A program made the translations under genes and the position numbers. A model generated the notes under the pieces. That model was not told where the DNA came from, did no database searches, and was given only the letters and a program-made list of their open reading frames with translations. From Sphingomonadales bacterium (GTDB lineage: Bacteria > Pseudomonadota > Alphaproteobacteria > SMXS01): DNA of 64,000 nt. Shown one piece after another: positions 10,403 through 16,644 of the stretch (position 1 is the stretch's first letter; each line of letters opens with the position of its first letter). Where the stretch lies: NCBI GenBank assembly GCA_022844405.1, contig JALHLV010000015.1:1-64000 (forward strand). The letters run 5' to 3'.

Positions 10403-12490
<2,088 letters not shown>

Positions 12491-12857: not shown

Positions 12858-13043
12858 TTAATTCGCGCTGCCGCGAATCCACTTCGAGATATCGTTGATG
12901 GCGTCGTCGAGGATCTGGGCGACCTCGCTCAGTTCGGCCCACCGGGCCTCACGGGCGAGATACTGCAGACCGGGGAGAAGCGACTGGGCGTTCTCCTGCG
13001 CGGTCTCGGCCACCAAACCACTGATGCGCGTTTCCGGGGTCAT
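12858..13043 (-). CDS. 61-residue protein coupled to luxI, unknown function
   Basis: I do not recognise this family. The ATG at 13041-13043 follows the luxI stop by a single base, so it is almost certainly translated with luxI. The product is short, soluble and helix-prone: acidic and Ala/Leu-rich, with L-V-A-E-T-A-Q-E-N-A-Q and W-A-E-L-S-E-V-A-Q-I-L-D-D-A-I near the middle, ending in I-S-K-W-I-R-G. There are no cysteines, membrane segments or DNA-binding motif. A longer frame reaches 13139, but that would overlap luxI heavily. It could modulate the synthase or the receptor; this is inference from position only. Confidence 0.65.
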   Translation of the reverse strand: MTPETRISGLVAETAQENAQSLLPGLQYLAREARWAELSEVAQILDDAINDISKWIRGSAN

Positions 13044-13044
13044 G

Positions 13045-13689
13045 TTAAGCCACCTTTTCCTGTGTTTCGACGGCCGCGAGGTCGTCGGCGGTCTGTAGAA
13101 CGGAGTACGTGATGCCGAGCTTGCCGCGGACGCGTGCAAGGATTTCCGGCGATACTTTCGGCGCCACGGCGCGGACGGCTTCGCCGCCGATCATCCGGGT
13201 TTCACCCAGGACCGTCACCGGCCAGCCGGTGCGTTCCATGAGGATCGTCTGCAGCGCGACGGGCATCAGGATGTAAAACTCATCGATGCCTTCGCGGATG
13301 CCCAACTCGAGATAGGCGCACATCATCTCACCGACCGCGCGCGCCTTCTCGGCGTCGCCAAGATCGGGATCGACCGCAAGTCGTGTCCCCTCCCACACGC
13401 GGTCGGACTTCACGATCGGCGCGAAGGTGACCATGTCGGGGAACACTTCCTCGAGCATGTAGGGCATGCTGGTGGGACTGACGCGGGTGACGGCGCGAAC
13501 GACGTTCTGCTTGTCCCGATAGGTCAGGTACGTGGCAGCCGGCGTATCGAACTGGTCGAATTCCATGCCCCGATAGCTCGGGACGTCGTAGCCTTGCTGC
13601 TGAATGAATACCTTATAACGAAGACGATGCTGCGACGCGATCGCATCGCCGAAGAGATGGGCTGTTTCGCAGGTTATGCAATCGATCAT
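13045..13689 (-). CDS. LuxI-type acyl-homoserine-lactone synthase
   Basis: Makes an N-acyl-homoserine-lactone signal from SAM and an acyl donor. The 214-residue protein keeps the invariant residues of the family: Arg24 and Phe28 in R-L-R-Y-K-V-F, Asp45 and Asp48 in E-F-D-Q-F-D, Arg69, Phe83, and Glu100/Arg103 in W-E-G-T-R. The usual tryptophan after the first motif is Tyr34. Parts such as E-E-V-F-P and T-G-W-P-V-T-V-L-G recall the BjaI/RpaI group that uses acyl-CoA or aryl-CoA donors, but the signal cannot be read from sequence. It has its own promoter region with a lux-box-like palindrome. Confidence 0.93.
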   Translation of the reverse strand: MIDCITCETAHLFGDAIASQHRLRYKVFIQQQGYDVPSYRGMEFDQFDTPAATYLTYRDKQNVVRAVTRVSPTSMPYMLEEVFPDMVTFAPIVKSDRVWEGTRLAVDPDLGDAEKARAVGEMMCAYLELGIREGIDEFYILMPVALQTILMERTGWPVTVLGETRMIGGEAVRAVAPKVSPEILARVRGKLGITYSVLQTADDLAAVETQEKVA

Positions 13690-13751: not shown

Positions 13752-13771
13752 ACCTACGGTACTCCGTAGGG
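13752..13771 (-). promoter_or_regulatory. lux-box-like operator upstream of luxI
   Basis: Inverted repeat with perfect 7-bp arms CCTACGG (13753-13759) and CCGTAGG (13764-13770) around TACT, nearly extended by one more pair, about 20 bp in total like known lux boxes. It is centred about 73 bp upstream of the luxI ATG, where an activator site at -42 would put the transcription start about 30 nt before the gene. It is the natural binding site for the adjacent LuxR protein, giving positive autoregulation. Confidence 0.55.
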
Positions 13772-14002: not shown

Positions 14003-14035
14003 CGAAGGCCGCGACGGGGATCGTCGCGGCCTTCG
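14003..14035 (-). terminator. Terminator downstream of luxR
   Basis: Perfect 14-bp stem CGAAGGCCGCGACG / CGTCGCGGCCTTCG with a 5-nt loop, followed on the minus strand by CATTTTCATG. It starts 24 nt after the luxR stop. Confidence 0.8.
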
Positions 14036-14058: not shown

Positions 14059-14781
14059 TTACGGGAGGATCAAACCGAAATGCAGCGCCTTGACCACGGC
14101 GGTGATGCGGCTGTCGACATCCAGCTTCTTGAGGATGTTGCGGACATGGAACTCGACGCCGTGCTCGGAGATGCCGATGATTTCGCCGATCGTCCAGTTG
14201 CTCTTGCCCTGGGCGCACCAGTGGAGAACCTCACGCTCGCGCGCGGTCAGCGAGACGGCGATCTGATCGCGGCTGCCCGGCTCTTCGAACGACCAGTAAT
14301 TCAGGTGGAACTGGTGCACCAGGGCGTTCAGCACGCCCAGGTGACGCGGCGCATCCGTCTGGCCGGCGGAGCTGGCCAGGCCGACGCCCGAGCTTTCGCC
14401 GCGGGGGCCGTGAAGCGGAATGCCGACACCATCGTTCAAGCCGGCGTCAACGGCGCCTTCCATCAGGAAGCGCTGCTGCTTGGTCAGGTGCATGTGCTTG
14501 GGCAGCGCGTCCCAGCAGAACGGTCGCGGCGCGACGATACCGTAGCGCACGACCGGGTCGAACTTGTCCCAGCGCTTGGACGCATACTGGCCGAGCCAGT
14601 CATTGGGATAGTTGGTCAGCACGACGGAGGAGCCTTCTTCTTCGCCTTCGCCGACGGCGCGGGTGCTGTGATACATCACCCGGTCGAAACCATACTGGCC
14701 GACCACCTGCCGGAAGAGGACAAGAGCCTCGTCCCGAGACTGGGCGGCGTTTGAACGTTCAATGTACTCCAGGATCTCCAT
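14059..14781 (-). CDS. LuxR-type acyl-homoserine-lactone receptor/regulator
   Basis: A 240-residue cytoplasmic transcription factor. The N-terminal ligand domain keeps the pocket residues of the LuxR/TraR family: Trp62, Tyr66, Asp75-Pro76 and Trp90, with a glycine near 118-120. The C-terminal HTH (residues ~178-235) has L-T-A-R-E-R-E-V-L and V-E-F-H-V-R-N-I-L-K-K-L, including Glu182. It lies next to luxI in the same direction, and 4 nt after a degenerate LuxR paralog with which it forms an operon. It likely activates luxI through the palindrome at 13752-13771. Confidence 0.93.
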   Translation of the reverse strand: MEILEYIERSNAAQSRDEALVLFRQVVGQYGFDRVMYHSTRAVGEGEEEGSSVVLTNYPNDWLGQYASKRWDKFDPVVRYGIVAPRPFCWDALPKHMHLTKQQRFLMEGAVDAGLNDGVGIPLHGPRGESSGVGLASSAGQTDAPRHLGVLNALVHQFHLNYWSFEEPGSRDQIAVSLTAREREVLHWCAQGKSNWTIGEIIGISEHGVEFHVRNILKKLDVDSRITAVVKALHFGLILP

Positions 14782-14785
14782 GGGC

Positions 14786-15430
14786 TTATCCGATCTCAGG
14801 AGAAATCAAGTGCAGGCGAAGCGAGATGACCACTGCGTGGACTTCGTTCTGCGCGCGGAGGCTTTTGGTGGCGGTGCGCATGTGACGGCGGAAATCGTCG
14901 GGCATCATGCCATACATCTTCAGGCGCGCCGGTGTCACGGCGCCTTCCGCCTGCAGTCTCAGGCAGCACTTCTCTTCTTCCGACAGCTGCGGCACCGGCG
15001 GGATGAAGCCGTGGGCCTTGAGCGCCTGCGAGGTCAGATCGTAGAATTCGCGGCCCCGGTCGAGCAGGTCGCCGGTGGCGACCTCGCCGAGCGCGTGAGG
15101 CATCAGGGTCAGCAGCGCCTTTTCGTCGTCGCCGCCGCGATAGGGCAGGACGAGCACCGGAGACTGGCTGCCGGCCGGGTCCGACCACCAGAAAGCGCCG
15201 CGGCCCATGGACTCGCCGATGGACAGGGGCGCCAGAACGGTGGCCATGCGGGCCAGGTAGCCCGGCTGATCGACGATGGACAGGCTCGTCAGCGTGATGT
15301 CGGGGCACTCACCGTCGTTCCAGACGGTGTAGAGGTGGAATCCGAAGTGCGCGAAGCCCCGCGTTCTCACGAACGCGCCGAACTTGCGCTTGATCCCTTC
15401 CAGTTCGCCCACTTGCTCGTACTCTGCCAT
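14786..15430 (-). CDS. Degenerate LuxR-family paralog
   Basis: A 214-residue protein that can be aligned with its neighbour LuxR along its length. The C-terminal part (L-S-E-E-E-K-C-C-L-R-L, then F-R-R-H-M-R-T-A-T-K-S-L) matches the HTH spacing, but the glycine turn and the recognition-helix signature are replaced. In the N-terminal half the Trp/Tyr/Asp-Pro pocket residues are mostly absent; a W-W pair at 81-82 may correspond to the second tryptophan. It is first in the operon with luxR. It may be a ligand-independent modulator or heterodimer partner of LuxR, or bind another ligand. I do not know a named family for it. Confidence 0.7.
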   Translation of the reverse strand: MAEYEQVGELEGIKRKFGAFVRTRGFAHFGFHLYTVWNDGECPDITLTSLSIVDQPGYLARMATVLAPLSIGESMGRGAFWWSDPAGSQSPVLVLPYRGGDDEKALLTLMPHALGEVATGDLLDRGREFYDLTSQALKAHGFIPPVPQLSEEEKCCLRLQAEGAVTPARLKMYGMMPDDFRRHMRTATKSLRAQNEVHAVVISLRLHLISPEIG

Positions 15431-15669
15431 TACTGATCTTTTGAGCCCAATCCCATGTCAGCGGGATACTAGGCAACATTCCGCGCCCGCACAACGATTC
15501 TCGCGAGGAATGAGGGGCAAAACACCGTGATTCTGACACTTTCCGGTCAAAATTCGGGACCCTGGACCCCAACGCCGCCGGAAAATGCCCTGAAATCAGC
15601 CCAGTGGCGCTCAAAAGCGTCAGGAACCGGTCAACCGCTTCGAATCGTTGGTAACAATTTGAAATAATT

Positions 15670-16644
15670 TCAACGATGCCGGAATCCGGGGGTTTCCGGG
15701 GTGATGTCAGCACCCGCCGCATCGAACACCCGGATCCTCTTACCGGCGACGATCCGGCCGATGCGGGTCGCCGCTACCCCGACGCCCGACAACCGCCGAT
15801 CGAGCGCCCCGACCGCGTCCGGCGGGATGCTGAAGACCAGCTCGTAGTCGTCGCCCCCGGCCAGCGCGACCGCGATCAGGTCGGGACGGTGATCGATCGC
15901 TCGCCGCGCCTGCGGCGACAGCGGCACGAGCGCGGCCTCGATCACGGCCCCGACGCCCGACGCCGAACACAGATGGCCGAGGTCGGCGACGAGACCGTCC
16001 GAAACGTCCAGACCGGCGGAGGCGACGCCCACCAGGGCGGCGCCGGCGGCGAGGCGCGGCCGCGGCAGCCTGTAGCGGTCGGCCAGAAAGCCGTCGGGGT
16101 CGGCAACCGCGCCGCGCAGGGCCATCAGCCCCAACGCCGCGTCGCCGACGGTACCGGTAACGAACACCACGTCGCCGGGACTCGCGCCCGACCGGCGCAG
16201 CAGGCGCCCCTGCCGGACGAACCCGAGTGCGGTGAGCGACAAAGTCAGCGGGCCAGGCGTGGACGTCGTATCGCCGCCCAGCAGCGCGATGCCGAATTCA
16301 CGCTGGTCGGCGGCGAGGCCGGCGGCGAAGGCGCGCAGCCAGCCGTCGCCGATCTCCGGCGGCAGGCTCAGCCCCAGCGCGTAACCGTGGGGAGCGGCGC
16401 CCATGGCGGCCAGATCGGACAGGTTGACCCTGAGCAGCTTGCGCGCCACCAGATCGGGCGGATCGTCCGGCAGGAAGTGCACGCCCGACACCATCATGTC
16501 CTTGGTCATGACGATGTCGTTTCCGGCTGGTGGCGTGATGATGGCGGCGTCGTCGGTCAGTCCGAAGCCGCCGGGCGCGGCCAGCGGCGCGAACAGTTCG
16601 GCGATGAGCTCGAATTCACCCAGACGCGGCGTGTCGCCCGGCAT
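15670..16644 (-). CDS. thiL: Thiamine-monophosphate kinase
   Basis: Phosphorylates thiamine monophosphate to the active cofactor thiamine diphosphate. The 324-residue protein has the PurM/ThiL fold landmarks G-L-T-D-D-A-A-I near residue 28, K-L-L-R-V-N-L-S-D-L-A-A-M-G-A, L-L-G-G-D-T-T near 123 and the C-terminal G-G-D-D-Y-E-L. The ATG start is 9 nt after nusB, so it is the last gene of the rpiB-to-thiL run. A 239-bp gap with only a weak hairpin separates it from the lux genes downstream. Confidence 0.95.
   Translation of the reverse strand: MPGDTPRLGEFELIAELFAPLAAPGGFGLTDDAAIITPPAGNDIVMTKDMMVSGVHFLPDDPPDLVARKLLRVNLSDLAAMGAAPHGYALGLSLPPEIGDGWLRAFAAGLAADQREFGIALLGGDTTSTPGPLTLSLTALGFVRQGRLLRRSGASPGDVVFVTGTVGDAALGLMALRGAVADPDGFLADRYRLPRPRLAAGAALVGVASAGLDVSDGLVADLGHLCSASGVGAVIEAALVPLSPQARRAIDHRPDLIAVALAGGDDYELVFSIPPDAVGALDRRLSGVGVAATRIGRIVAGKRIRVFDAAGADITPETPGFRHR

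Follow-up and report, generated by a model that had tools for sequence, protein, structure and literature searches.

Architecture of the luxR-luxI locus

We analyzed a 64,000-nucleotide window from the genome of a Sphingomonadales bacterium (contig JALHLV010000015.1, positions 1 to 64,000), in which a luxR-luxI pair lies on the minus strand behind an additional gene, here called P (Table 1). The names thiL, for the gene upstream of P, and hppA are presumptive, assigned from the sequences. The P frame is open from start to stop and ends just ahead of an intact luxR, as the first-pass annotation had claimed, and the distance from the P stop to the luxR ATG is 4 nt in all seven genomes that carry the locus.

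Table 1. Coordinates of the genes, protein segments and sites discussed here, numbered along the window
Feature	Position	Strand	Description
hppA (presumed)	10403-12490	-	minus-strand gene in the window
S	12858-13043	-	61-aa small conserved protein directly after luxI
luxI	13045-13689	-	AHL synthase; Pfam Autoind_synth 5.8e-23
lux-box-like palindrome	13752-13771	.	63-82 nt upstream of the luxI start
hairpin	14003-14035	-	14 pairs, 23 nt past the luxR stop; terminator-like, would close the P-luxR unit
luxR	14059-14781	-	240 aa, intact AHL-type; Autoind_bind and GerE; all nine hallmark residues present
P	14786-15430	-	214-aa protein of predicted LuxR fold, ligand domain and recognition helix altered; first gene of the putative P-luxR unit
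P, C-terminal GerE-like HTH domain	14798-14986	-	residues 149-211; framework E/L/G and dimer helix kept
P, recognition helix	14858-14905	-	residues 176-191; carries another sequence, conserved in its turn, in place of the LuxR signature
P, N-terminal domain	15011-15430	-	residues 1-140; predicted LuxR ligand-domain fold lacking a helix and the G113 segment
P, conserved patch	15299-15355	-	residues 26-44; strand b1 and b1-b2 loop
intergenic region ahead of P	15431-15669	-	239 bp; presumed promoter of P-luxR
thiL (presumed)	15670-16644	-	upstream of P

The regions ahead of luxI and of P differ. A near-perfect palindrome, ACCTACGG-TACT-CCGTAGGG, precedes luxI, whereas a palindrome search found no lux box in the region between thiL and P; a promoter scan of the P strand found no sigma-70-like site before P. 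Using exact or one-mismatch sites and nothing looser, we located the lux box upstream of luxI in all seven genomes with the locus (six exact to the pattern, one mismatch in G001, the most distant relative), and in each genome it was the only site at this threshold. A genome-wide search at up to two mismatches was dropped, as the backward control pattern gave more matches than the pattern itself. From the P-luxR spacing and the strong hairpin past luxR we infer that P and luxR are co-transcribed, which would give two transcription units, P-luxR and, behind the lux box, luxI-S.

The S gene, which sits 1 nt past luxI in all seven genomes, may encode a quorum-sensing accessory; its product returned no match at E ≤ 1 in Pfam or NCBIfam. 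Judged by eye, S-like small genes also follow LuxR genes that have no luxI, both elsewhere in the same genome (L052, 2833-3102, minus strand) and in G004 (L056, 4199-4408) and G005 (L057, 2661-2936, minus strand).

Conservation and distribution of P

Every P ortholog in the seven family genomes with the locus is 214 aa long and begins with ATG, and the six from other genomes are 72-97% identical to the window copy. Measured against the window copies, dN/dS of P was 0.031-0.113, indicating strong purifying selection. This is about the same as for luxR (0.044-0.144) and luxI (0.044-0.094) and lies below thiL (0.147-0.458); the range for hppA was 0.097-0.193. Third codon positions account for 71 of the 82 substitutions between P and its G004 ortholog, and a 224-aa antisense ORF over P is broken by stops in three of six relatives, so the coding strand is that of P. 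Toward G001, P is better conserved (72% identity) than luxR (65%), and the difference widens in the N-terminal domain (0.72 for P, 0.58 for LuxR). The intact orthologs, low dN/dS and third-position changes therefore mark P as a maintained gene. The first-pass annotation had described it as maintained and altered, not decaying, and had named frameshifted homologs in close relatives as the observation that would speak against this; none of the seven orthologs is frameshifted, and their spacing to luxR is constant.

The P-luxR pair, which the same annotation had proposed to look for in other genomes, recurs within the family: P and the luxI ortholog co-occur in seven of ten family genomes, the present one included, and both are absent from the other three. 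Two genomes of a third genus contain distant luxI genes only (28-34%), without P. G006, which is 78% complete in 340 contigs, has neither P nor luxI, a result that a missing contig would mimic. Four of the P loci are also present in the named collection. A class-wide search with the P profile (E ≤ 0.001) matched 9 of 385 genomes, five of them from the same family, while the remaining four matches covered about the HTH alone (residues 112-210 at most). We further scanned 30 luxR loci from 30 genomes, one each, with flanks of up to 1.5 kb, and found P in five loci, all of this family, and in none of the 25 from other families; one of these 25 (L028) has another LuxR-like frame nearby. A plasmid search returned 4 of 72,556 records, all encoding proteins annotated as autoinducer-binding or LuxR (E 3e-3 to 8e-3), and no others. 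Across the genomes searched, P was confined to a single small family of Alphaproteobacteria, in which it invariably accompanies this luxR-luxI pair.

Sequence and predicted structure of P

P matches no Pfam or NCBIfam family at E ≤ 1, Autoind_bind and GerE included, whereas the adjoining luxR matches both of these Pfam families (8.7e-29 and 1.2e-20, respectively). The two proteins are about 20% identical, and BLASTP aligned them significantly over the HTH alone (17/63 identical, E 4e-4). Comparison of the profiles of 7 P and 19 LuxR sequences with hhalign extended the alignment to 203 columns (probability 98.0, E 1.9e-13). The full-length score was 87.6, whereas 100 column shuffles averaged 14.7 and peaked at 26.2, and the reversed profile scored 17.2. 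Taken separately, the N-terminal domain scored 32.1 (shuffle maximum 23.5) and the C-terminal domain 66.5 (shuffle maximum 21.8), values that 0 of 100 shuffles reached in either case.

Searching the sequences of solved structures with P gave nothing significant, the sole LuxR in the list being RhlR at E 0.91, and the P profile likewise gave nothing significant. AlphaFold2 run on the seven P orthologs alone yielded a poor model (mean pLDDT 44.5), so we treat the Foldseek result obtained with this low-confidence model as no more than supporting: all five matches at E ≤ 0.001 were LuxR proteins. RhlR accounts for four of these chains; the fifth match is 2q0o, an antiactivation complex whose chain A we take to be TraR. 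With 26 LuxR rows added to the alignment, pLDDT reached 84.6 and pTM 0.72, although these rows bias the model toward the LuxR fold. This second model matched QscR best among PDB structures (Z 14.7, 4.2 Å over 201 residues), by a small gap over RhlR (Z 13.3) and SdiA (Z 12.9); GAF-domain and Rag GTPase chains follow further down the same list at Z of about 9-11.

On these sequence and model comparisons, P is homologous to LuxR over both domains, more weakly over the ligand domain, and has the two-domain fold of LuxR. This agrees with the first-pass alignment along the HTH and part of the ligand domain, and a structure unrelated to LuxR, which had been named as refuting, is not what the predictions gave. 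The term paralog used there, if it means a duplicate of this very luxR, is not supported by our tree, in which the P stem (4.33 changes per site) is too long to place. Rapid early change with tight conservation afterwards is the pattern expected of a new function.

Helix names and roles are assigned here by analogy with solved LuxRs, and P was scored segment by segment against 26 LuxRs. The pocket strand-helix segment (P -0.92, LuxR mean 1.51) and helix a5 (-1.05) fall below every one of the 26 LuxRs. For the first helix and strand, P (0.51) is inside the LuxR range, with 10 of the 26 scoring as low or lower. P lacks a stretch of ~18 residues, corresponding to LuxR 101-118, which is helical in LuxR. 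The hallmarks of AHL-type LuxRs comprise W57, Y61, D70, P71, W85 and G113 in the pocket, six residues listed in both cited sources (PMC10134790, PMC11655674), and E178, L182 and G188 in the HTH (PMC10134790). G113 is lost along with the missing stretch in all seven P orthologs, which also carry Asp in place of W57 and Ala in place of D70; Y61, P71 and W85 are kept in all seven. The claim that most pocket residues were lost thus holds for W57, D70 and G113 and fails as to "most", three of six being retained. The pocket nonetheless looks disabled, and P has probably lost AHL sensing. The best conserved part of the protein is the patch at residues 26-44, in which 18 of 19 columns are invariant among the seven orthologs, and which falls partly in a loop that is variable in LuxR.

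All seven orthologs retain the HTH framework residues E178, L182 and G188. The recognition helix scores -0.26 (LuxR mean 2.05), below all 26 LuxRs, in keeping with the earlier remark that its signature is lost, and the same is true of a10 (0.70) and a11 (-1.23). P has probably lost the reading of the usual DNA site. Conservation of the replacement helix is close to that of the protein as a whole, with 12/16 residues identical between the window copy and that of G001 at 72% identity overall; Arg181, Arg182 and Arg185 are invariant among P orthologs. Residues 192-195, invariant in 4/4 columns, rank with the patch at 26-44 as the best conserved.

The two dimer helices behave differently. In the DNA-binding domain, the dimer helix of P scores 1.48 (LuxR mean 1.65), inside the LuxR range, as 8 of 26 LuxRs score no higher, whereas the N-domain helix a9 (-0.53) scores below all 26. 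The a9-like helix is also comparatively poorly conserved within P, with 8/18 columns invariant and 9/18 residues identical to G001, against 12/16 in the recognition helix. Because a9 has diverged, the usual main dimer surface of LuxR may not be shared by P.

A candidate LuxR partner and its alternatives

The reading that we favor, and to which we assign an even chance, is that P is a dedicated AHL-blind partner of the neighboring LuxR and sets its threshold through heterodimerization. The first-pass annotation had already proposed a modulator, for example a heterodimer that blocks or tunes LuxR. The operon position, the fixed spacing, the co-occurrence with luxRI, the disabled-looking pocket and the kept dimer helix of the DNA-binding domain all point to such a pairing. 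P would pair with LuxR subunits with no need for AHL. Because its recognition helix is unfamiliar, the P-LuxR pair would be expected not to recognize the symmetric lux box before luxI, and P would thereby subtract LuxR. Expression from one operon would hold the P:LuxR ratio roughly constant, as a built-in buffer, and luxI would come on only once AHL-bound LuxR homodimers outnumber P. The quorum threshold for luxI would thus be raised and sharpened and self-triggering of the cell prevented. A steady supply of P and LuxR together with a regulated luxI fits the presence of a lux box before luxI and its absence before P. Three features fit this reading less well: the diverged a9 helix may argue against pairing with LuxR, the three retained pocket residues weaken the case for AHL-blindness, and the conservation of the recognition helix exceeds what a dominant-negative protein would need, as if that helix may still touch DNA or another partner. 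The conserved helix with its invariant arginines and the diverged a9 thus leave some probability to a regulator acting on its own or to a functional heterodimer that has its own operator.

As an independent regulator, P would bind DNA as a homodimer of new specificity, respond to a non-AHL ligand or to none, and lie beside luxR for co-expression only. We consider this doubtful, though deserving of serious weight: a rewritten yet conserved recognition helix with three invariant arginines on an intact DNA-binding framework, together with a new N-domain patch such as a binding site for a ligand or partner would show, is set against strict linkage to this luxR at fixed spacing and the finding that P never occurs without the luxRI pair in the ten family genomes. 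Nor was a P operator found among the palindromes near the locus.

It is unlikely, in our estimate, that P is a positive partner that stabilizes LuxR or forms heterodimers activating distinct promoters. The linkage of P and luxR would fit, and in Cereibacter sphaeroides the level of CerM drops as well when CerN is lost (PMC11655674), so that an altered LuxR can stabilize its partner. The one clear lux box, however, has the palindromic symmetry that would suit a LuxR homodimer. We know of no hybrid operator. Distinctly unlikely is a working P-LuxR heterodimer whose two recognition helices, one from an AHL-sensing and one from an AHL-blind subunit, would read a second, asymmetric operator; in that case one luxR gene would drive two regulons, those of the homodimer and of P-LuxR, and the P N-terminal domain, with its patch at 26-44, would take a second input. 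Finally, that P is a decaying luxR duplicate that happens to be open is scarcely credible, the lost LuxR hallmarks and long stem branch being outweighed by seven intact orthologs under low dN/dS, by third-position substitutions and by an N-terminal domain closer to that of G001 than LuxR's is.

If the favored reading, an AHL-blind LuxR partner, is right, P is best read as a functional analog of TrlR, CerN and QscR with a different architecture. QscR of Pseudomonas aeruginosa differs in being an orphan and binds AHL and DNA, and TraM, QslA, RsaM and other small antiactivators are not known to be LuxR homologs. QscR, the best structural match of the P model, is like P a full-length LuxR-type protein and can pair with and restrain other LuxRs, pairing with LasR and RhlR when overexpressed (PMC13043044). 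The small antiactivators resemble the proposed P as quorum-sensing brakes, some of them beside luxR-luxI (PMC13043044, PMC3386692), and a survey of luxR/luxI topologies places negative regulators such as rsaL and rsaM between the two genes (PMC3386692). TrlR of Agrobacterium tumefaciens is, as proposed for P, a defective LuxR-type protein kept beside a functional LuxR, and acts through inactive heterodimers with TraR (PMC13043044, PMC11655674). TrlR has no HTH, is 88% identical to TraR and works with AHL, whereas P keeps the DNA-binding fold, is highly diverged from its LuxR and has a damaged pocket. CerN, likewise an altered LuxR homolog of an alphaproteobacterium encoded upstream of a luxR-luxI pair (cerR-cerI), diverged long ago from its target, another LuxR, CerM (31% identity), and with AHL weakens CerM binding to DNA (PMC11655674). 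CerN lacks an HTH but retains the complete set of six pocket residues, the reverse of the architecture of P. Since P keeps a GerE-fold HTH, where TrlR and CerN consist of the ligand domain alone, and its pocket is not intact, we place it outside the TrlR/CerN type.

Of the LuxR-derived brakes described in the papers cited here, TrlR and CerN have no DNA-binding domain, and QscR is itself an AHL receptor. P would represent a third design, AHL-blind, with a conserved but rewritten HTH and fixed in the luxR operon, and would offer a simple system in which to test the setting of a quorum threshold by a constant ratio of partner to receptor. Judged by titles and abstract openings, the literature searched, which lay mostly outside subscription journals, contained no AHL-blind, HTH-bearing LuxR partner. 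Standard domain annotation misses partners like P, so quorum-sensing loci may hold more than is recorded.

Other LuxR-type arrangements were seen in the family. At a second luxI-like locus in the present genome (L076, 676-1275, minus strand, contig C1) and in G003 (L072, 776-1375, minus strand), the neighboring LuxR-like protein ends inside the HTH at 199 aa and looks like the TrlR/CerN type; G008 (L075) and G009 (L074) have 225-aa versions of it. G003 also contains a 77-aa frame (L051, 3385-3618, plus strand) that consists of a degenerate LuxR-type HTH only, matches the P profile at E 4.8e-5 and overlaps by 4 nt with the beginning of another luxR. On contig C26 of G001 (L054, 2765-6691, plus strand), a run of apparently four consecutive LuxR-type genes lies behind a luxI-like gene.
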